Shown: in pieces, positions 629 to 12,983 of the stretch
Position numbering within the stretch: the first letter of the stretch is position 1
Layout of the letters: every line of letters begins with the position of its first letter
Assembly: GCF_003254295.1 (NCBI RefSeq)
Contig: NZ_QKZO01000005.1
Location: 1-64,000 of the forward strand
Length of the DNA: 64,000 nt
Origin: Rhodobacter capsulatus
GTDB taxonomy: Bacteria > Pseudomonadota > Alphaproteobacteria > Rhodobacterales > Rhodobacteraceae
Direction: 5' to 3'
Made by a program: the position numbers and the translations under genes
The notes under the pieces: generated by a model
Seen by the model: the letters and a program-made list of their open reading frames with translations, nothing else
The model's database searches: none
What the model was told of the DNA's origin: nothing

Positions 629-2887
629 TCAGGGGAAGCGGTTGTCGCGCGGGAAGCCGCGCGGCGCCATCCGCCCGGCGCTCGCCCGCTTGCCCAGCCA
701 TTCCGACAGATCCGCCTCGGTCCGCGTCCGCCCGGCCGGGTCCTTCCAGCTCAGCCCCTCCTCCAGGCGGAAGGTGATCGCATCCGACAGCCCGCCATCC
801 TTGAACTTCTGCAGCCGAACCCCCTTGCCCCGCGCCATCTCCGGCAGCTCCTCCAGCGGGAAAACCAAAAGCTTGCGGTTCTCGCCGACACAGGCCACCG
901 CATCGCCCGAAGCCACCCGGCACACCCGCGTGCGCACGCCGTCGCTCATGTTCAAGACCTGCTTGCCGGTCCGGGTCGAGGCGATCAGCTCCTCGGCGGG
1001 CGCGATGAACCCGTCCCCCTCGGACGAAGCCAGCAGATATTTCTCGCCCGGTTTGGGCACCAGAACATGGGTCACCTCGACCTCGTTCGGCATCTCCAGC
1101 ATCAGCCGCACCGGCTCGCCCATGCCACGCCCGCCGGGCAGGTTCGCGCCCAGAAGCGTCCAGGCCCGCCCGTTCGAGCCCATCAGCACGATCCGGTCCG
1201 TCGTCTCGGCATGGAGCGCAAAGGCCTGACCGTCGCCGTCCTTGAACTTCACCTCGGCATCGAGCGGCTGGTGCCCCTTCATCGCCCGCATCCAGCCCAT
1301 CTTCGACAGGATCACGGTGATCGGCTCGCGCTCGATCATCGCCTCGATCGGCACTTCCTCGACCTCCCCGGCCTCGGCGAAATCGGTCCGCCGCGCGCCG
1401 ACCTTGGTGGCCTTGCCCCAGGTCTTGCGCAGGTCTTCCAGCTCCGAGGAAATCTGCGCCCATTGCGCGACCTCGGACGCCAGAAGCGCCTCCAGCCCCG
1501 CGCGTTCCTTCAGCAGATCATCGCGCTCGGCGCGCAGCTCCATTTCCTCAAGCCGCCGCAGGCTGCGCAGCCGCATGTTCAGGATCGCCTCGGCCTGCAC
1601 CTCGGTCAGATGCACCACCGCCCCCGCCTCGGCCGCCCAGTTCTCGGCCATCAAGGCCGCTTTCGGGTCGTCCTCGGTGCGGATGATCTCGATCACCCGG
1701 TCCAGGTTCAAAAAGGCGATGATATAGCCTTCGAGCACCTCAAGCCGGTTCGCGATCTTTTCCAGCCGGTGGCGGGACCGCCGACACAGCACCTCGCGGC
1801 GATGGTCCAGAAACGCCCGCAGCACCTCTTTCAGCGAGCAGACCTTGGGCACCCGCCCGTCGATCAGCACGTTCATGTTCAGGCTGAACCGCACCTCAAG
1901 TTCCGAGTTGCGAAACAGCATCCCCATCAGCTGCGCCGGTTCCACCGTCCGCGCCCGCGGTTCCAGCACGATCCGCACATCCTCGGCGCTTTCATCCCGC
2001 ACATCGGCCAGCGCGGGGACCTTCTTCGTCTCGATCAGCTCGGCCAGCCGCTCGATCAGCTTGGCCTTTTGCACCTGATAGGGGATCTCGGTGACGACGA
2101 TCTGCCACTGCCCCCGGCCCAGATCCTCCAGCGCCCAGCGCGCCCGCAGCCGGAACGCGCCGCGCCCGGTGCGGTAGGCCTCAAGGATATTCGCCTTGGG
2201 TTCGACAATCACCCCGCCGGTCGGGAAATCCGGCCCGGGAATCAGATCGACCAGCCGGGCATCGTCAATCTCGGGCTCGGCGATCATCGCCAGACAGCCA
2301 TCGACGAGTTCATCAAGGTTGTGCGGCGGCACGTTCGTCGCCATGCCGACGGCAATGCCGCTGGCGCCATTCGCCAGAAGGTTCGGGAAGGCCGCGGGCA
2401 GCACGACCGGCTCGGTCAGCGTGCCATCATAGTTCGGGCGGAAATCGACCGAATCCTCGGCCAGACCCTCCAGCAGCGCCTCGGCCGGCGCGGCCAGACG
2501 CGCCTCGGTATAGCGGCTTGCCGCCGGGCCATCGCCGTCGATGTTGCCGTAGTTGCCCTGCCCGTTCACCAGCGGGTAGCGCATGGCGAAATCCTGCGCC
2601 AGCCGCGCCATCGCATCATAGATCGCGGCGTCGCCATGCGGGTGATAGTTCCCCATCACGTCGCCCGAAATCTTTGCCGATTTGCGGAAACCGCCGGTCG
2701 AGCTCAGCTTCAACTCCCGCATCGCATAAAGGATGCGCCGGTGCACCGGCTTCAGCCCGTCGCGCGCATCGGGCAGCGCCCGGTGCATGATCGTCGAGAG
2801 CGCATAGGTCAGGTAACGCTCGCCGATCGCCCGCGAAAGCGGTTCGGCATGGGTTGCGGAAGTCGGGGTTTCGTCGTCGCTGCTCAT
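629..2887 (-). CDS. parC: DNA topoisomerase IV subunit A
   Basis: Cleavage-religation subunit of the ParC2ParE2 type II topoisomerase that decatenates chromosomes. The protein has 752 residues, normal for alphaproteobacterial ParC. The start is placed at the ATG giving MSSDDETPTS, because homology (ERYLTYALSTIMHRALPDARDG) begins just after it; the frame stays open far upstream on this strand but without meaning. Catalytic tyrosine is Tyr126 in AASRYTEAR. The quinolone-determining stretch, with HPHGDAAIYD at about 82-91, is intact. The C-terminal part has the beta-pinwheel repeats expected of ParC rather than GyrA (no clear GyrA box). It is single-gene, transcribed away from the neighbouring dehydrogenase. 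Confidence 0.96.
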   Translation of the reverse strand: MSSDDETPTSATHAEPLSRAIGERYLTYALSTIMHRALPDARDGLKPVHRRILYAMRELKLSSTGGFRKSAKISGDVMGNYHPHGDAAIYDAMARLAQDFAMRYPLVNGQGNYGNIDGDGPAASRYTEARLAAPAEALLEGLAEDSVDFRPNYDGTLTEPVVLPAAFPNLLANGASGIAVGMATNVPPHNLDELVDGCLAMIAEPEIDDARLVDLIPGPDFPTGGVIVEPKANILEAYRTGRGAFRLRARWALEDLGRGQWQIVVTEIPYQVQKAKLIERLAELIETKKVPALADVRDESAEDVRIVLEPRARTVEPAQLMGMLFRNSELEVRFSLNMNVLIDGRVPKVCSLKEVLRAFLDHRREVLCRRSRHRLEKIANRLEVLEGYIIAFLNLDRVIEIIRTEDDPKAALMAENWAAEAGAVVHLTEVQAEAILNMRLRSLRRLEEMELRAERDDLLKERAGLEALLASEVAQWAQISSELEDLRKTWGKATKVGARRTDFAEAGEVEEVPIEAMIEREPITVILSKMGWMRAMKGHQPLDAEVKFKDGDGQAFALHAETTDRIVLMGSNGRAWTLLGANLPGGRGMGEPVRLMLEMPNEVEVTHVLVPKPGEKYLLASSEGDGFIAPAEELIASTRTGKQVLNMSDGVRTRVCRVASGDAVACVGENRKLLVFPLEELPEMARGKGVRLQKFKDGGLSDAITFRLEEGLSWKDPAGRTRTEADLSEWLGKRASAGRMAPRGFPRDNRFP

Positions 2888-2995
2888 GGTCGCGGTGTAA
2901 TTCGGGACCGGCCCCCGGTCCAGCAGAAACACCGGCCAAAACCGTTGTCGCCTGCGCGGGCTTCGCCTATCTGGAACGAAACACGGGGGATGACG

Positions 2996-3835
2996 ATGGC
3001 GAAGACGATCCTGATCACCGGCTGCTCTTCGGGCATCGGCTACGATGCGGCGCATGGGCTGCAAAAGGCGGGCTGGAAGGTTCTGGCCACCTGTCGGCGC
3101 GAAGAAGACTGCGCCCGGCTGCGCGCCGAGGGGCTGATCTCCTTTCCGCTCGATCTCTCCGACCCCGCCTCGATCGAAGCGGGCTTCAACGAGGCCTTGG
3201 CGCGGGCGAACGGACGGCTTGACGCGCTTTACAACAACGCGGCCTATGGCTGCCCCGGCGCGGCCGAGGATCTGCCGCCGGGCGCGCTTCGCGAAATCTT
3301 CGAAACCAACCTTTTCGGCCTGCATGACCTGACGATCCGCGCGATCAAGGTGATGCGGGCCCATGGTGACAATGGCGAGGGGCGGATCATCCAATGTTCC
3401 TCGGTTCTTGGGCTGGTGGGTATCCGCTGGCGCGGCGCCTATGTCGCCACCAAATTCGCGCTGGAAGGTCTGACAGAGGTGCTGCGCCGCGAGATGCGCG
3501 ACACGGGCATTCACATCATCACGCTCAACCCCGGCCCGATCCCGACGAAGATCCGGGTCAACTCGATCCCGCATTTCGAGAAATGGATCGACTGGAAGGC
3601 CTCGGCCCGGCGCGACCAATATGAAACCTCGCTTCTGAAGCGGCTCTACTCTCCCTCGGGCAAGCCCGACATGTTCGAGCTGCCCTGTTCGGCGGTGACC
3701 GACCAGATCCTGCGCGCCCTGACCGACCCGAAACCGAAGTCGCATTACTATGTGACGAAGGCGACCTGGCTGGCCGCGATCGCGCGACGGATTCTGCCGC
3801 TGCGGGCGCAGGACTGGATGTTTTCCAAGGCCTGA
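2996..3835 (+). CDS. Short-chain dehydrogenase/reductase
   Basis: Classical SDR of 279 residues that would oxidise or reduce an alcohol/carbonyl substrate with NAD(P). The cofactor loop TGCSSGIG is at residues 8-15, the NNAA motif at 80-83, Ser135/136 and the Tyr149-x-x-x-Lys153 pair form the active site. The start at 2996 is preferred because GGGGGA ends five bases upstream; an ATG six bases earlier (2990) sits right against that ribosome-binding site. The substrate cannot be read from sequence. It stands alone between parC (divergent) and etfB. Confidence 0.9.
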   Translation: MAKTILITGCSSGIGYDAAHGLQKAGWKVLATCRREEDCARLRAEGLISFPLDLSDPASIEAGFNEALARANGRLDALYNNAAYGCPGAAEDLPPGALREIFETNLFGLHDLTIRAIKVMRAHGDNGEGRIIQCSSVLGLVGIRWRGAYVATKFALEGLTEVLRREMRDTGIHIITLNPGPIPTKIRVNSIPHFEKWIDWKASARRDQYETSLLKRLYSPSGKPDMFELPCSAVTDQILRALTDPKPKSHYYVTKATWLAAIARRILPLRAQDWMFSKA

Positions 3836-3991
3836 GTCGATTTCGCCCAACTGTCTTCGCGACGTGACGTAGCGACACCATCCGGCGTCGTTTTTCATCT
3901 GTCTTTTGCTGCGGTCGCATTGTAACAAAATTTCCGATGCAAGAATCCGCCCCCCCCGGGGGCGCCTTCGAAACCTAGGGAGACACCGCCG

Positions 3992-4750
3992 ATGAAGGTC
4001 CTCGTGCCTGTGAAGCGCGTGATCGACTACAACGTGAAAGTCCGTGTGAAGGCGGATGGCAGCGGGGTCGATCTTGCGAACGTGAAAATGTCGATGAACC
4101 CCTTCGACGAGATCGCCGTCGAAGAGGCGATCCGGCTGAAGGAAAAAGGTGCTGCAACCGAGATCGTCGTCGTCTCCGTGGGCGTGAAACAGGCGCAGGA
4201 AACCCTGCGCACGGCGCTGGCGATGGGGGCGGATCGCGCCATCCTCGTCGTTGCCGCCGAGGACGTGCATACCGACATCGAGCCGCTCGCCGTCGCGAAA
4301 ATCATCGCCAAGGTCGCCGCCGAGGAACAGCCGGGCCTGATCATCACCGGCAAGCAGGCGATCGACAATGACATGAACGCGACCGGCCAGATGGTCGCGG
4401 CACTTCTGGGCTGGGCGCAGGCGTCCTTCGCCTCGGCGGTGGAAATCGCGGGCGATGCCGCCAAGGTGACGCGCGAAGTCGATGGCGGTCTGCAAACGAT
4501 CGAGGTCAAGCTTCCGGCCGTGATCACCGCCGATCTGCGGTTGAACGAGCCGCGCTATGCCTCGCTGCCCAACATCATGAAGGCGAAGAAAAAGGAACTG
4601 GCCGAGAAGACCGCCGCCGATTACGGCGTCGATGTCTCGCCGCGCCTGACCGTGGTGAAGACCGCGGAACCGGCGGGCCGGGCCGCCGGGATCAAGGTCG
4701 GCTCGGTCGACGAGCTGATCGGCAAACTCAAGGACGCGGGGGTGATCTGA
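3992..4750 (+). CDS. etfB: Electron transfer flavoprotein, beta subunit
   Basis: Small subunit of the ETF heterodimer that carries electrons from acyl-CoA dehydrogenases to ETF-ubiquinone oxidoreductase. The protein has 252 residues and opens [20 protein letters not shown], typical of bacterial EtfB. The conserved C-terminal recognition loop region ([17 protein letters not shown]) is present. AGGGAGA eight bases upstream is a good ribosome-binding site. The stop overlaps the etfA start by one base (TGATG), so the two subunits are translationally coupled. The 156-bp gap upstream includes a run of eight C followed by GGGGG at about 3951-3962 and an AT-richer stretch that probably contains the promoter. 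Confidence 0.97.
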
Positions 4751-6737: not shown

Positions 6738-7613
6738 ATGACGATCTTGACCGTGGGTGTCGTGGGCGCCGGACAGATGGGCAACGGCATCGCCCATGTC
6801 TTTGCGCTCTCGGGCTATGACGTGCTGCTCAACGACGTGGCCCCCGAAAGCCTCGACCGGGCCCTCGGGATGATCGGCAAGAACCTCGACCGGCAGGTGC
6901 ACCGGGGCAAGATCTCCCTCGAGGAGCGCGCGGCGGCGCTGGGGCGGATCCGCACGACGCTGACGATTGCCGATCTGGGCCAGACCGACCTGATCATCGA
7001 GGCGGCGACGGAACGCGAGACGGTCAAGCAGGCGATCTTCGACAGCTTGCTGCCGCATCTGAAACCGGAAACGATTCTGGCCACCAACACTTCGTCGATC
7101 TCGATCACCCGGCTGGCCTCGCGCACGGACCGGCCGGAGAAATTCATCGGCGTGCATTTCATGAACCCGGTGCCGGTGATGCAGCTGGTCGAACTGATCC
7201 GCGGCATCGCCACCGGAGAGGAAACCTACCGCACGCTTCTGGGCGTGATCGAGCGGCTGGGCAAGACCCCCGCCTCGGCCGAGGATTTCCCGGCCTTCAT
7301 CGTCAACCGCATCCTGATCCCGATGATCAACGAGGCGGTCTATACGCTTTATGAAGGCGTGGGCAACGTGCAGTCGATCGACATGGCGATGAAGCTGGGC
7401 GCGAACCATCCGATGGGGCCGCTGGAACTGGCCGATTTCATCGGGCTGGATACCTGCCTCGCGATCATGAACGTGCTGTATGACGGGCTGGCCGACACGA
7501 AATACCGGCCCTGCCCGCTGCTGACGAAATATGTCGAGGCCGGATGGCTCGGGCGCAAGACCGGCCGCGGCTTTTACGACTATCGCGGCGAAACCCCGGT
7601 GCCAACGCGCTAG
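6738..7613 (+). CDS. 3-hydroxybutyryl-CoA dehydrogenase
   Basis: NAD(P)-dependent 3-hydroxyacyl-CoA dehydrogenase of 291 residues, the single-domain bacterial Hbd/PaaH type. It would interconvert 3-hydroxybutyryl-CoA and acetoacetyl-CoA. The Rossmann loop GAGQMGNGIA is at residues 10-19. The catalytic His140 lies in GVHFMNPVPV with Glu152 following, and the C-terminal helical domain ends at DYRG. AAAGGA upstream is a good ribosome-binding site. It follows etfBA at about 1 kb, suggesting a shared role in acyl-CoA oxidation or polyhydroxybutyrate metabolism. It is followed 48 bp later by imuA with no terminator visible, so readthrough could provide basal imuA expression. Confidence 0.92.
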   Translation: MTILTVGVVGAGQMGNGIAHVFALSGYDVLLNDVAPESLDRALGMIGKNLDRQVHRGKISLEERAAALGRIRTTLTIADLGQTDLIIEAATERETVKQAIFDSLLPHLKPETILATNTSSISITRLASRTDRPEKFIGVHFMNPVPVMQLVELIRGIATGEETYRTLLGVIERLGKTPASAEDFPAFIVNRILIPMINEAVYTLYEGVGNVQSIDMAMKLGANHPMGPLELADFIGLDTCLAIMNVLYDGLADTKYRPCPLLTKYVEAGWLGRKTGRGFYDYRGETPVPTR

Positions 7614-7661
7614 GCCGCGGCCCCGGTTGGAAAGGGCGGGGTTTCGCGTTACCCTGCCCGC

Positions 7662-8222
7662 ATGTCCTGCGCTGATCTTCCCTGTTTCCCGCTGCGTCCG
7701 GGCCGCGTCCATGAGGTCTGCGGCCCCTCCGCCGCCGTCTTCGCCGCCTGCGCCGCAGCCAGCCTGCAAGGCCCGGTGCTCTGGCTGCGCGAGGCCTGGC
7801 TGACCGAGACCCTCAACCCCTTGGGGCTTTTGCCCTTTCTTGATCCCGCCCGGGTGCTTCTGGCGCGCCCGCCAAACCAGATCGACAGTCTGGCCTTGGC
7901 CGAGGAGGCGCTGAAAGACGGCAGCCTTGCGCTTGTCGTGCTGGAAATCACCCGCCCGCTCGATCTGCGCGAGGGGCGGCGGCTGCAATTGGCCGCGGGG
8001 GCCGGGGCCACGACGGGGCTGTGCCTGATCCCCGAAGGCATGGGCTCGAACGCCGCCGAAACGCGCTGGCGGGCCACGCCGATCTTTGATGCCGCGGGCA
8101 CGGACTCGACTCCGATGCGGTGGGAAATTATAAAGAACAAAATGGGAACATTGGGCGCGTGGAATGTTTGCTGGAACGCAAAGGCGCATCGTCTCGATCT
8201 GGTTTCCCCGGCTGGCGACTGA
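7662..8222 (+). CDS. imuA: ImuA, RecA-like mutagenesis accessory protein
   Basis: First gene of the imuA-imuB-dnaE2 cassette for SOS-induced translesion mutagenesis. The 186-residue product is RecA/SulA-like but has no intact Walker A, as expected for the family. It is rather short compared with many ImuA (200-260 residues). The C-terminal segment (RWEIIKNKMGTLGAWNVCW, residues 153-171) matches the family end, so the gene runs through to 8222 and overlaps imuB by 59 bases. Codons 155-164 (GAA ATT ATA AAG AAC AAA ATG GGA ACA TTG) are strikingly AT-rich for this genome because they also encode a promoter and LexA operator. I see no LexA site directly upstream of imuA. Confidence 0.85.
   Translation: MSCADLPCFPLRPGRVHEVCGPSAAVFAACAAASLQGPVLWLREAWLTETLNPLGLLPFLDPARVLLARPPNQIDSLALAEEALKDGSLALVVLEITRPLDLREGRRLQLAAGAGATTGLCLIPEGMGSNAAETRWRATPIFDAAGTDSTPMRWEIIKNKMGTLGAWNVCWNAKAHRLDLVSPAGD
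8106..8149 (+). promoter_or_regulatory. SOS promoter with LexA operator, inside imuA
   Basis: LexA of Rhodobacter is known to bind direct repeats GTTC-N7-GTTC, or GAAC-N7-GAAC on the other strand. Here GAAC at 8135-8138 and GAAC at 8146-8149 are exactly seven bases apart, and a degenerate third repeat GAAA sits at 8124-8127, again seven bases away. A -35-like TCGACT (8106-8111) and a -10 TATAAA (8129-8134) are 17 bp apart, and the operator covers the expected start point. The site is 15 bp before the imuB start, so it should drive imuB-dnaE2 on DNA damage. Confidence 0.85.
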
Positions 8223-9636
8223 CCGGGCCCTGCGCGCCTGCCCGGTCGAGGGACCCTTCGCGCTGGTGCAACGGCTGGGCAATGCCGAAACGCTCTTTTG
8301 CCTGAACGCCGCGGCCGAGGTCGCCGGTCTTTTTCGCGGCATGCGGATGGCGGATGCCCGCAGCTTCTGCCCCGGGCTGGTCAGCCGCCCGGCCCGTCCC
8401 GATCTTGACGCCCGGTTTCTGGCCGGGCTGCGACGCTGGGCGGAACGCTATTGCCCCTGGGTCGGGCTGGAGGGCGCCGACGGTCTGGTGCTCGATGTCA
8501 CCGGCGCGGCGCATCTGTGGGGCGGCGAGGGGGCGATGTGCGCCGACATCCGGGCGCGGCTGGAACGGGCGGGGCTGACGGCGCAACTTGGCCGCGGGTC
8601 GAGCCGCGGCGCCGCCTGGGCGCGGGCGCATTTCGGCGATCAACCCGCCGAAGCGCCCGAACCCGATCTGCTCGCCCTGCCCGTCGCGGCGCTGCGGCTG
8701 GACCCCGACACGGTGACCGGGCTGCAGCGGCTGGGGCTGCGCCGCATCGGCGATCTGGCCGCCAGCCCGCGCGCGCCGCTGGCCCGCCGCTTCGGCCCCG
8801 ATCTGCTGACCCGGCTCGATCAGGCGCTGGGTCACAGCCCCGAACCCGTCACCCCCGCGACCAAGCCGCCGCGATTCGCCACCCGGATGACCCTGCCCGA
8901 GCCGATCGGGCTGGAAAGCGACGTGATGGCCGGGCTGACCCGGCTGCTGGAGCCGCTTTGCGACAAGCTCGCCGCGCATCAGGCCGGAGCCCGGCAGCTT
9001 GTCCTGACCCTGCGCCGCGTCGATCAGGCCAGCCAGCAGGTCGAATTGCGTCTGGCCGCGCCGATGCGCGACCCGGCCCGGATCCTGCCGCTTTTCGCCC
9101 GCGGTCTGGCCGGGGTCGATGCGGGCTTCGGCATCGACCAGCTGCGGCTCGAGGCCACCCGGGTCGAACCGCTCGCCCCCGCGCAGCTGGGCACGACCCC
9201 GGCCGCCAGCCCCGACCGGCTGGCTGATCTGCTCACAAGGCTGGGCACCCGGATCGGGCTTGAGAACATCCACCGCTTCCTGCCCGCCGAAAGTCACATC
9301 CCCGAACGCGGCTTCCTGCTTGCCCCCGCCGCCTTCAGCCCCGCGCAAGGCGGGTTTCACGCCCCCCGCCCGCGCCCCCTGCGGCTCTTTCCGCCCGAGC
9401 CGATCACCGCGACCGGCGCCACCCCGCCCGCAAGGTTCCGCTGGCGGGCCATGCCGCTCAGCACCGCCCGCGCCACCGGGCCGGAACGGATCACCCCGGA
9501 ATGGTGGCTGGAAGACGAAAGCTGGCGGCACGGGCTGCGCGATTACTGGCGGGTGGAGACCGCCGAGGGCCGCAGGCTCTGGCTCTTCTTCACGCCGCAA
9601 AACCCCGGCTGGTTCGTACAGGGCGAATTCGCATGA
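8164..9636 (+). CDS. imuB: ImuB, catalytically inactive Y-family polymerase
   Basis: Y-family polymerase homologue of 490 residues that bridges DnaE2 to the beta clamp in the translesion mutasome. The N-terminus has the ImuB signature (RRIVSIWFPRLATDR, residues 7-21) followed by palm and finger segments. Family members lack the full acidic triad and are thought not to polymerise. The C-terminal extension ends in WWLEDESWRHGLRDYWRVET, typical of ImuB. Ribosome-binding is weak (GTGGA). It overlaps imuA by 59 bases and dnaE2 by four (ATGA), so the last two genes are coupled. It lies directly behind the LexA-controlled promoter inside imuA. Confidence 0.94.
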   Translation: MFAGTQRRIVSIWFPRLATDRALRACPVEGPFALVQRLGNAETLFCLNAAAEVAGLFRGMRMADARSFCPGLVSRPARPDLDARFLAGLRRWAERYCPWVGLEGADGLVLDVTGAAHLWGGEGAMCADIRARLERAGLTAQLGRGSSRGAAWARAHFGDQPAEAPEPDLLALPVAALRLDPDTVTGLQRLGLRRIGDLAASPRAPLARRFGPDLLTRLDQALGHSPEPVTPATKPPRFATRMTLPEPIGLESDVMAGLTRLLEPLCDKLAAHQAGARQLVLTLRRVDQASQQVELRLAAPMRDPARILPLFARGLAGVDAGFGIDQLRLEATRVEPLAPAQLGTTPAASPDRLADLLTRLGTRIGLENIHRFLPAESHIPERGFLLAPAAFSPAQGGFHAPRPRPLRLFPPEPITATGATPPARFRWRAMPLSTARATGPERITPEWWLEDESWRHGLRDYWRVETAEGRRLWLFFTPQNPGWFVQGEFA

Positions 9637-12600
9637 GCGTTTTTCCTGGTCCAAATACGCAAGATCCCGCCGCTTATGCCGAGCTTTGCGTGACCTCGAA
9701 TTTCACCTTCCTCACCGGCGCCTCGCACCCCGAGGAACTGGTGGCGCGCGCCGCCGAACTGGGGCTGGCGGCCATCGCGATCACCGACCGCAATTCGCTG
9801 GCCGGGGTGGTGCGGGCGTTTTCGGCGCTGAAGACCCTGCGGCAGGAGACCGAGGCTTTGCGCATCCGCTCGGCCAGCCAAACCGATCCGTCCTCGCGGC
9901 AAAGCCTCGGCCCCGCCGCGCCGCTGCCCCGGCCCGAAACCCCGGATCTGCCGCGGCTGATCATCGGCACGCGGCTTGCCCTGCGCGATTGCGCGACGGA
10001 CTTTCTGGCCCTGCCCACCGACCGGCGGGCTTATGAGCGACTCTCGCAACTGCTCACCCTTGGCAAGCGCCGGGCGGGCAAGGGCGACTGCGCCCTAAGC
10101 CTTGACGATCTGGCCGCGGGCGGGGCCGGGCTGATCCTGATCGCCCTCCCGCCGCCCGACCTGACCGCCGCGCTGGCGCCCTTGCAACGGCTGCAGCGGC
10201 AGTTTCCCGGCCATGTCTTTCTGGGTGCCGCGCCGCGCTATGACGGCACCGATCAGGCCTGGTTTCGCGGCTGTGCCGATCTGGCCCTGCGGGCCTCGAC
10301 GCCGATGGTGGCGGTGGGCGATGTGCTGATGCACCGCGCGGCCCGCCGCCCGCTGGCCGATGTGCTGACCTGCCTGCGCGAGGGGGTGACGATCGACGCC
10401 ATCGGCACCCGGGCGCTCCCCAATGCCGAGCGCCGCCTGAAAGGCGCGGCCGAGATGGCGCGGCTCTTTCGTCACCACCCGGCCGCGATCCGCCGCACGC
10501 TGGAGATTGCCGCGCGCTGCGCCTTTGACCTTGCGGAACTCAGCTACGATTACCCCGGCGAGGACGACACGGAACCGCCGCAGGCCCGGCTGGAACGGCT
10601 GGCGCATGAGGGGTTGGCCCGGCGCTATCCGCAGGGCGCGTCCGAGCGGGTGCATCAGCTCTTGGCCAAGGAACTCGCGCTGGTCGGGGACCTCGGCTAT
10701 GCGCCCTATTTCCTGACCGTGCAGGACATCGTGCAATTCGCCCGCGCGCGCGGCATCCTCTGTCAGGGCCGCGGCTCGGCCGCCAATTCCATCCTGTGCT
10801 ATCTGCTGGGGATCACGGATGTTTCCCCCGACATGATCGGCATGGTGTTCGAGCGGTTCATCTCGCGCCATCGCGGCGAGCCGCCCGATATCGACGTCGA
10901 TTTCGAACATGAACGCCGCGAGGAAGTGATCCAGTGGATCTATGAGAAATACGGCCGCGACCGCGCCGGGCTTTGCGCCACGGTGATCCATTTCCGCACC
11001 CGCGCCGCGATCCGCGAGGTGGGCAAGGTGATGGGGCTTTCGGCCGATGTGACGGCGGCGCTTGCGGGGCAGATCTGGGGCATGTCGAACCGCGGCGCCG
11101 ATCCGGCCCGGCTGCGCGAGATCGGCCTCAATCCCGAAGACCGGCGGCTTTCGCTGACGATCCGGCTGATTTCCGAAATCATCGGCTTTCCGCGCCATCT
11201 GAGCCAACATGTCGGCGGTTTCGTCATCACCCGCGGGCGGCTCGACGCGCTTTGCCCGATCGAAAACGCCGCGATGGAGGGGCGCACCTGCATCGAATGG
11301 GACAAGGACGACATCGACGCGCTCGGCATCCTCAAGGTCGATGTGCTCAGCCTTGGGATGCTGACCTGCCTGCGCAAAAGCTTCGATCTGCTGGAACGCC
11401 ACAAGGGGCTGCGGCTGGATCTGGCCAAGGTGCCCCAGGAAGACCCGGCCACCTATGCGATGCTGACGCGCGCCGATGCGGTGGGGGTGTTTCAGGTCGA
11501 AAGCCGGGCGCAGATGAATTTCCTGCCCCGCATGAAACCCGCGACTTTCTACGATCTGGTGATCGAGGTGGCGATCGTCCGACCGGGGCCAATTCAGGGC
11601 GGCATGGTCAAGCCCTATATCCGTCGCCGTCAGGGGCTGGAGGCGCCGGAACCCTTTGGCCCTGCGCTCGCTGCAGTGACGGCGAAAACGCTCGGCGTGC
11701 CGCTCTTTCAGGAACAGGCGATGCAGATTGCCGTCGTCGGCGCGGGCTACAGCGCCGAAGAGGCCGATCAGCTGCGCCGCTCGCTCGCCTCGTTTCGGCG
11801 CATGGGCACGATCGGCGCGCATCGCGACCGCTTCGTCTCCGGCATGACCGAGCGCGGCTATCCCCCGGCCGTGGCCGAAGCCTGTTTCGCCCAGATCGAG
11901 GGTTTTGCCGATTACGGTTTCCCCGAAAGCCATGCCGCGGCCTTCGCGATGCTGACCTATGTCTCCTCCTGGCTGAAATGCCACCACCCCGAGATCTTCG
12001 CCTGCGCTTTGCTCAATTCCCAGCCGATGGGCTTTTACGCCCCGGCGCAGATCGTGCGCGATCTGCGCGAGCATGGGGTCGAGGTGCGGCCGATCTGCGT
12101 GAACCGTTCCGACTGGGACAATGCGCTGGAGCGGCGGGCCGACGGGCGGCTGGCGCTGCGGCTGGGCTTTCGGCAGATCAGGGGCTTTCGCGCCGAGGAT
12201 GCGGGCTGGATCGTCGCCGCGCGCGGCAATGGCTACCCGGATGTCGAAAGCCTGTGGCTGCGCGCGGGGCTGTTGCCCGCCGTGCTGGAACGGCTGGCCG
12301 AGGCGGATGCCTTTGCGGGTCTTGGCCTGACGCGGCGCGATGCGCTTTGGGCGGTGCGCGCGATCCGGGCGCCGAAGCCCTTGCCTTTGTTCGCCAATCC
12401 GCTGGATGGCGAGGGCGGGATCGAGCCCGCCGTGACCCTGCCGCCGATGCATCTGGGCGAGGAGGTGGTCGAGGATTACATCGCCCTGCGGCTGACCCTG
12501 CGCGCCCATCCGATGGAGCTCATGCGCCCCGGCCTGCCCGGTCTGACCTGTCACGACCGGCTAGTGACGGCGCCGCTGGGGCGCAGCTCCGTTTGCGGTC

Positions 12601-12983
12601 TGGTGATCACCCGCCAGCGCCCCGGCACCGCCTCGGGGGTCATTTTCCTGACCCTTGAAGATGAAACCGGCGTCGCGAATATCGTGGTCTGGCCAAAGGT
12701 TTACGAGCGTTTCCGCCGTGCTGTCATGGGCGGGCGGCTCTTGCGTGTCACCGGGCGTCTGGAGCGCGAGGGGATCGTGGTGCATCTGATCGCCGAACGG
12801 ATCGAGGATCTGTCGCCGCGGCTTTCGGACCTTGGCCACCCGCTTGACGGCGCCATCGGCCAGACCCGTCCCGAGGCCGACGATGCCCCCAGATCCGGGT
12901 CCCGGCCCGCCCGCCAGCCACCCCGGGCGCAGCATCCGCGCGAACAGGCCAAGCGGCTCTTTCCCAGCCGGGATTTCCACTGA
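9633..12983 (+). CDS. dnaE2: Error-prone DNA polymerase III alpha subunit DnaE2 (ImuC)
   Basis: Replicative-type polymerase used for error-prone translesion synthesis under SOS control. It has 1116 residues. The PHP domain opens with YAELCVTSNFTFLTGASHPEE, and the polymerase acidic motif PDIDVDFEHERREEV is at about residues 416-430. The OB-fold segment near the C-terminus (GVIFLTLEDETGVANIVVW) is present, and the end (QAKRLFPSRDFH) is the family hallmark. The start ATG at 9633 overlaps the imuB stop; the frame is open upstream but homology begins at MSVFPGPNTQDPAAYAEL. A stem (12981-13003, TGACC...GGTCA) lies between this gene and the convergent one but has no T-tract. Confidence 0.96.
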   Translation: MSVFPGPNTQDPAAYAELCVTSNFTFLTGASHPEELVARAAELGLAAIAITDRNSLAGVVRAFSALKTLRQETEALRIRSASQTDPSSRQSLGPAAPLPRPETPDLPRLIIGTRLALRDCATDFLALPTDRRAYERLSQLLTLGKRRAGKGDCALSLDDLAAGGAGLILIALPPPDLTAALAPLQRLQRQFPGHVFLGAAPRYDGTDQAWFRGCADLALRASTPMVAVGDVLMHRAARRPLADVLTCLREGVTIDAIGTRALPNAERRLKGAAEMARLFRHHPAAIRRTLEIAARCAFDLAELSYDYPGEDDTEPPQARLERLAHEGLARRYPQGASERVHQLLAKELALVGDLGYAPYFLTVQDIVQFARARGILCQGRGSAANSILCYLLGITDVSPDMIGMVFERFISRHRGEPPDIDVDFEHERREEVIQWIYEKYGRDRAGLCATVIHFRTRAAIREVGKVMGLSADVTAALAGQIWGMSNRGADPARLREIGLNPEDRRLSLTIRLISEIIGFPRHLSQHVGGFVITRGRLDALCPIENAAMEGRTCIEWDKDDIDALGILKVDVLSLGMLTCLRKSFDLLERHKGLRLDLAKVPQEDPATYAMLTRADAVGVFQVESRAQMNFLPRMKPATFYDLVIEVAIVRPGPIQGGMVKPYIRRRQGLEAPEPFGPALAAVTAKTLGVPLFQEQAMQIAVVGAGYSAEEADQLRRSLASFRRMGTIGAHRDRFVSGMTERGYPPAVAEACFAQIEGFADYGFPESHAAAFAMLTYVSSWLKCHHPEIFACALLNSQPMGFYAPAQIVRDLREHGVEVRPICVNRSDWDNALERRADGRLALRLGFRQIRGFRAEDAGWIVAARGNGYPDVESLWLRAGLLPAVLERLAEADAFAGLGLTRRDALWAVRAIRAPKPLPLFANPLDGEGGIEPAVTLPPMHLGEEVVEDYIALRLTLRAHPMELMRPGLPGLTCHDRLVTAPLGRSSVCGLVITRQRPGTASGVIFLTLEDETGVANIVVWPKVYERFRRAVMGGRLLRVTGRLEREGIVVHLIAERIEDLSPRLSDLGHPLDGAIGQTRPEADDAPRSGSRPARQPPRAQHPREQAKRLFPSRDFH

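Follow-up and report, generated by a model that had tools for sequence, protein, structure and literature searches.

A predicted LexA-repressed promoter for imuB-dnaE2 inside the imuA coding sequence of Rhodobacteraceae

Introduction

Can the 3′ coding part of a bacterial gene also serve as the promoter of the gene that follows it? The question is raised by imuA in the window, a 64,000-nucleotide stretch of Rhodobacter capsulatus DNA, in which the elements of an SOS promoter are read in frame as ImuA codons. The locus resembles the Caulobacter-type imuA-imuB-dnaE2 cassette in its genes, their order and the presence of a LexA box; in Caulobacter, imuABC has an early SOS promoter, according to the consulted excerpt of PMC12700426. 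Across the class, however, the LexA promoter usually lies near the imuA start, whereas here it is embedded in imuA, from where it would be expected to drive imuB-dnaE2. The literature matches listed, represented by titles and the beginnings of abstracts, contained no LexA promoter inside imuA and no GACTCGACTC, the motif at its −35, in such a role.

Results

The imuA-imuB-dnaE2 cassette in the window

The genes imuA (7662..8222), imuB (8164..9636) and dnaE2 (9633..12983) are contiguous on the + strand, and their ends overlap. The product of imuA, the host frame of the promoter (186 aa, ImuA/SulA-like), was named by its position 5′ of imuB; it matched the NCBIfam ImuA model weakly (23.9 bits, cut-off 150), and a Pfam search gave no match. 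ImuB (490 aa) carries the Pfam domains IMS (4.7e-11) and IMS_C (2.6e-08), and dnaE2 was named by eye from sequence and position, without a family search. The imuB ATG at 8164 lies within imuA, giving a 59-bp overlap of the two ORFs, and the imuB stop and the dnaE2 start share the sequence ATGA. We propose that imuB is the first gene of an SOS unit to which dnaE2 also belongs. Upstream, hbd, encoding 3-hydroxybutyryl-CoA dehydrogenase (6738..7613, +; NCBIfam PRK07530 equivalog, 541 bits against a 420-bit cut-off), is separated from imuA by 48 nt. Elsewhere in the window (629-4495, minus strand), a long ORF runs from a non-coding-looking part into sequence that, judged by eye, resembles topoisomerase IV subunit A.

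Anatomy of the embedded promoter

The earlier note had described a −35, a 17-bp spacer, a −10 and the repeat GAAA-N7-GAAC-N7-GAAC inside imuA, and direct reading bore this out. On the + strand, a predicted −35 TCGACT (8106..8111), conserved in relatives, is followed by a 17-nt spacer (8112-8128), a predicted −10 TATAAA (8129..8134), AT-rich and alignable in relatives, and a predicted LexA operator GAAC-N7-GAAC (8135..8149), whose half-sites at 8135-8138 and 8146-8149 are both exact. A third, outer half-site, GAAA (8124..8127), is weakly conserved; among the loci listed, it is an exact GAAC in five. The three half-sites are spaced 11 bp apart, forming a direct repeat of the alphaproteobacterial LexA type. 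The −35 hexamer sits inside GACTCGACTC (8103..8112, +), which consists of two adjoining GANTC (CcrM) sites, and the whole block thus occupies 8103-8149. The codons named earlier for the block, E155 to L164, were confirmed, as was its AT-richness (GC 0.43, against about 0.70 around it); the distance from the operator to the imuB ATG is 14 bp, rather than the 15 bp given previously. A generic, strict-consensus sigma-70 scan, whose rule requires T as the last −10 base, returned no promoter at the block; TCGACT-17-TATAAA was spotted by eye and is conserved.

We rejected the idea that the GAAC repeat is significant by itself: the window has four copies of GAAC-N7-GAAC where 1.2 are expected, and 4 of 100 shuffles contain at least as many; the genome has 82 copies, and 77 of a reversed control pattern. 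The significance of the site lies in its conservation in relatives and not in the motif match. The motif nevertheless marks SOS genes in this genome. Among 20 of the 82 genome sites, chosen mainly for AT-rich spacers, five precede SOS or repair genes, namely lexA (with three GAAC), uvrA, uvrB, uvrD/pcrA and a repair radical SAM gene; no such gene was linked to the remaining 15.

Conservation of the embedded site in relatives

Searches with ImuB found matches in 18/18 genomes of the genus, 267/296 of the family and 121/241 of the class, to which 17 named loci were added; the 60 regions read are a chosen part of the listed family matches. We dropped L025, L027 and L028, which come from the same genomes as L004, L007 and L006, and left the fragments L022-L024 out of the counts. 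A few genomes contribute two loci, and some named loci may share a species with a genome of the searched (G) set. An ImuA-like frame was present in 99/124 loci of the family and its near kin and in 27/29 further class-wide loci (27 from other families, two from the same family). After removal of the three duplicates, 123 ImuA proteins were aligned.

GAAC-N7-GAAC occupies the same imuA codons in 85 of these 123 loci, one of which, Pseudovibrio L040, is assigned to another family (Stappiaceae). Among 92 ImuA sequences of the window's type, seven had no exact operator; they include L164 and L165 (family f100), in which both the operator and the GANTC have decayed and K-N-K-S-G is kept. In an ImuB tree (FastTree, partial proteins, 41/101 inner branches weak), 25 rows of other families lay on one side, and L164, L165 and L040 fell among the rows with an embedded site, a topology compatible with a single origin of that site. 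In one genome of the genus, G010 (L016, L021, L022-L024), two imuB loci carry the embedded promoter; one of its two imuB matches has an internal TGA, and further imuB pieces contain stops.

DNA constraint beyond the protein

One check suggested earlier was whether the imuA nucleotides are conserved beyond protein need. We compared codon use at the block with codon use in the rest of imuA, taking 79 codon columns as controls. The codons GAC TCG ACT reached fractions of 0.99, 1.00 and 0.96 against expectations of 0.43, 0.21 and 0.07, and GGA reached 1.00 against 0.08 (z 10 to 32 for these four). Overall, GAC TCG ACT, AAG AAC AAA, TCA and GGA ACA were frozen with z from 8 to 32, whereas the control maximum was 7.6; because the sequences are related, these z values are not probabilities, and the comparison with the control columns is the test. 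The way the set was defined partly selects for AAG, AAC and GGA AC but not for the Asp-Ser-Thr codons; the outcome was the same without operator selection, in 92 sequences of which 85 have the operator. Codon choice at the block is conserved far more than the protein requires. Together with the similar promoter found before imuB where no imuA adjoins it (see below), this supports the earlier reading of the segment as protein code and LexA-type imuB promoter at once.

The DNA also goes with particular residues. GACTCGACTC accompanies Asp-Ser-Thr at ImuA 148-150, and Thr163 is fixed, by definition, wherever the operator stands in frame. Eleven ImuA proteins keep a K-N-K-like motif with no exact operator (L090, L091, L098, L101, L109, L112, L113, L115, L164, L165 and L169), indicating that K-N-K is not made by the operator. 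Position 163 in these proteins is Thr in three and otherwise Ala, Ile, Pro, Glu or Ser, and Asp-Ser-Thr is found in one, L101, which still has GACTCGACTC. In most ImuA proteins of other families, R-C-R-G-G or a variant replaces K-N-K-x-G, L169 and L164/L165 being exceptions.

LexA boxes in other families and in split loci

Among the 27 class-wide loci with ImuA, 24 (including L174, of the window's family) have an exact LexA box near the imuA start and none in the 3′ part of imuA; L164, L165 and L169 have no exact box. In L168, from another family, two more LexA-type boxes lie between imuA and imuB (1429-1464) besides the one at the imuA start, and are perhaps an independent second imuB promoter.

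In 25 loci, imuB has no adjacent imuA. A LexA site precedes imuB in 24 of them and is missing from one; 17 have a double GANTC, 18-26 nt from the operator and in 16 cases an exact GACTCGACTC, and five have no GANTC in the scored window. L035 keeps the block with no ImuA-like frame and has a TAG where K-N-K-x would be read. The missing imuA was located elsewhere in 24 of 25 genomes tested (those of 24 split loci, L035 being left out, plus G202), 10 kb away in G021. We read 20 of these separate imuA genes: a LexA site lies upstream of the aligned start in 17 and just inside it in two, and one gene has none; 0 of the 19 sites has a GANTC in the −35 window. In split genomes, therefore, the GANTC goes with imuB and not with imuA. 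The division of the cassette into two regulatory units that the earlier note had proposed is thus supported for the relatives, by the separate imuA genes and their own upstream LexA sites.

We had also considered that loci without imuA keep imuB and dnaE2 together. This was true for L035, L067 and L068 and false for L176, and it was rejected as a rule: dnaE2 was not found within 1.5 kb downstream of imuB in 15/15 further split loci, including that of the L176 genome, and the 2.5 kb that follow each of 15 separate imuA genes yielded neither imuB nor dnaE2. The same dnaE2 queries succeeded in 4/4 control loci. A clade with a longer ImuB (L119-L132, L243-L257, L258-L272) seems to have imuA, imuB and dnaE2 all apart.

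The tandem GANTC at the −35

GANTC is about fivefold depleted in the window (52 against 279 expected), leaving 52 potential CcrM sites in 64 kb. One tandem GANTC is present, against 1.2 expected from dinucleotide shuffles, 70 of 100 of which contain one, and against 0.04 expected at the depleted density; it stands out only against the latter. GACTCGACTC is a single copy in this genome assembly and is present at the imu site in 18/18 genomes of the genus. Of eight extra copies in the genus, one has a LexA site within 150 nt and seven have none. The copy with a LexA site (L157, positions 1001-1044; genome G002) belongs to a second SOS-type promoter, in which GACTCGACTC lies 19 nt before GAACATAATCAGAAC, and stands before an open frame of 324 codons with no Pfam family match.

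Among the 85 embedded promoters, 80 have an exact GACTCGACTC, one has another double GANTC and four have a single GANTC; of the five that are not exact, four broke one GANTC and one changed only the N. L059 and L107 changed the N and retained both GANTC. Among the listed cases, N is almost always C, which is tighter than CcrM needs. A LexA box with a double GANTC at a distance of 20-40 nt was found in 164/395 family genomes, against three for the reversed control. We rejected a double GANTC as a feature of the whole class: outside the family, 7/381 genomes match, as many as in the reversed control (seven).

At imuA promoters of other families, a single GANTC is often fused to the −35 as TTGACTC (10 of 18 loci, those scored being the loci whose 48 nt upstream of the box contain a TTGAC). 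Any GANTC was present in 12 of 24 such promoters (one of these 24, L174, is from the window's family). At lexA promoters, largely of the same genomes, the corresponding counts were 0/26 and 4/26; 29 lexA loci had been examined, two of which lacked an exact box and one TTGAC, and five of the 26 are from the window's family or f100. The imuA-lexA difference gave Fisher values, with phylogeny ignored, of 2e-5 for TTGACTC (7e-5 for outside families only) and 0.015 for any GANTC; its true strength is somewhat less, since f105, f49 and f23 supply two imuA loci each. That GACTCGACTC might be a motif of SOS genes or promoters in general was rejected on the basis of its single genome copy, the seven copies in the genus that have no LexA site nearby, the lack of TTGACTC at the lexA promoters and the lack of GANTC in the −35 window of the separate imuA genes. 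The GANTC motif is specific to the imu promoter.

The genome encodes GcrA (PF07750, E 4e-47) and a CcrM-type RAMA domain (PF18755, E 3e-20), RAMA being the C-terminal domain of CcrM; in the control for the PF18755 search, the domain was matched only in Caulobacter. The extended GcrA motif YGAKTCK, as quoted in PMC7987155, was not matched at the two sites, each of which agrees at 6/7 positions on the minus strand as judged by eye. The part of PMC7987155 consulted reports this extended motif as absent in Brevundimonas.

Control of imuA itself

The window has no recognizable SOS site before imuA, as had been noted earlier; the best half-site match in 7400-7700 reaches 6/8 bases. Near the imuA start, an exact LexA site occurs in eight of the 85 loci with an embedded site and a 7-of-8 match in a further 12, whereas shuffled segments lead one to expect about 0.25 and about 8, respectively; we regard the eight exact sites, and few of the twelve near matches, as probably real. 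A scan of the 48-nt gap between hbd and imuA detected no terminator-like site, and expression of imuA by readthrough from hbd, which had also been suggested, is possible. In mechanical ORF lists, the upstream ORFs look different among relatives. In L099 (positions 2-700), a gene for an SRAP (SOS-associated peptidase) protein, identified by a Pfam search of this one locus, overlaps the aligned imuA start region, and imuA may be co-transcribed with it; ORF length and position suggest that L093-L096, L102, L104 and L105 perhaps share this arrangement.

Discussion

The evidence argues strongly that the block is a genuine promoter for imuB-dnaE2, repressed by LexA and embedded in the 3′ coding region of imuA. 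LexA would normally block the start region; upon DNA damage, LexA cleavage would free the promoter, and sigma-70 polymerase would start near 8141, some 7 nt downstream of the −10, transcribing imuB-dnaE2 without imuA. Adenine methylation at the tandem CcrM site, read by GcrA or directly by the polymerase, could further modulate the promoter, upward or downward; we put this methylation/GcrA input forward tentatively. Caution is called for on this point, since the C of GACTC hardly varies and the sites match the extended GcrA motif incompletely.

It is very improbable that the block is kept for the protein and that its promoter-like look is a by-product of coding W-x-x-I-K-N-K-x-G-T. Several ImuA proteins do retain K-N-K with no exact operator, as such a protein constraint would have it, but the codon freezing speaks against it, R-C-R-G-G or a similar motif takes that place in most other families, L035 keeps the block without an ImuA-like frame and with a TAG inside it, and the similar promoter before imuB in loci with no adjacent imuA already contradicts it. 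Alternatively, the whole cassette, imuA included, might be SOS-induced from an unrecognized upstream promoter, with the embedded site as a secondary promoter or booster. The excess of exact LexA sites near the imuA start (8/85) and the SOS-associated SRAP gene directly upstream of imuA in L099 favor this arrangement; however, 77/85 embedded loci have no exact upstream site, and the poor match before imuA in the window also makes it unlikely.

A serious contender, though one we would not bet on, is that the LexA promoter alone is real and that GACTCGACTC is either a favored −35 region or bound by some specific, unknown activator, with no part for CcrM and GcrA. The preference for C at N exceeds what GANTC demands, four of the five non-exact embedded promoters lost one GANTC, and the consulted part of PMC7987155 describes GANTC as conserved at imuA promoters of Caulobacterales (Caulobacteraceae and Hyphomonadaceae), without apparent regulatory effect, and reports no GcrA effect at imuA. 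Against this reading, a sequence that occurs once in the assembly is not a general −35, GANTC is depleted in the window, it recurs with other flanks (TTGACTC) in other families and not at the lexA −35, and L059 and L107 change N yet keep both sites. Although the Caulobacterales promoters share with the present one a conserved GANTC at an imu SOS promoter, the GANTC here is doubled, is part of the −35 and lies 22 nt upstream of GAAC-N7-GAAC (11 nt from the outer GAAA); overlap with the LexA motif, to which the authors of that paper ascribe the conservation, cannot account for a GANTC at the −35, outside the operator.

Returning to a LexA promoter with a possible methylation input, the closest precedents are Caulobacter promoters in which GANTC at or near the −35 is associated with cell-cycle-dependent, methylation-linked activity and GcrA binding, in the portions of PMC4287350 and PMC3667746 consulted. 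Sigma-70 promoters of the ctrA P1 type under CcrM/GcrA have, according to the same portions, a GANTC overlapping or beside the −35, as here; the present promoter differs in its predicted LexA operator over the start region and its two adjoining GANTC. The consulted section of PMC6813329, in which damage induction of Brucella lexA is independent of GcrA, counts against a GcrA input.

Split or abbreviated imu cassettes were reportedly described by Erill in 2006. They are also mentioned in the excerpt of PMC3765255 consulted. Common to such cassettes and to the loci studied here is that imuA lies apart from imuB in many genomes; what differs is that the promoter preceding imuB where imuA is missing seems to correspond to the one that sister genomes carry within imuA. 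The loci form a natural series, with the promoter upstream of imuA, within it or ahead of imuB alone.

The finding means that regulatory DNA can fix protein residues across a bacterial family. As a tentative model, to which we give somewhat less than even weight, the promoter of the mutagenic polymerase unit of alphaproteobacteria may be a two-input switch, in which LexA would report damage and the methylation state of a GANTC at the −35 would sense that the replication fork has passed; in the Rhodobacteraceae, the GANTC would have been doubled and the module moved into imuA, dictating several ImuA residues and freeing imuB-dnaE2 from the control of imuA. The locus makes it possible to ask directly whether DNA methylation couples damage-induced mutagenesis to replication.
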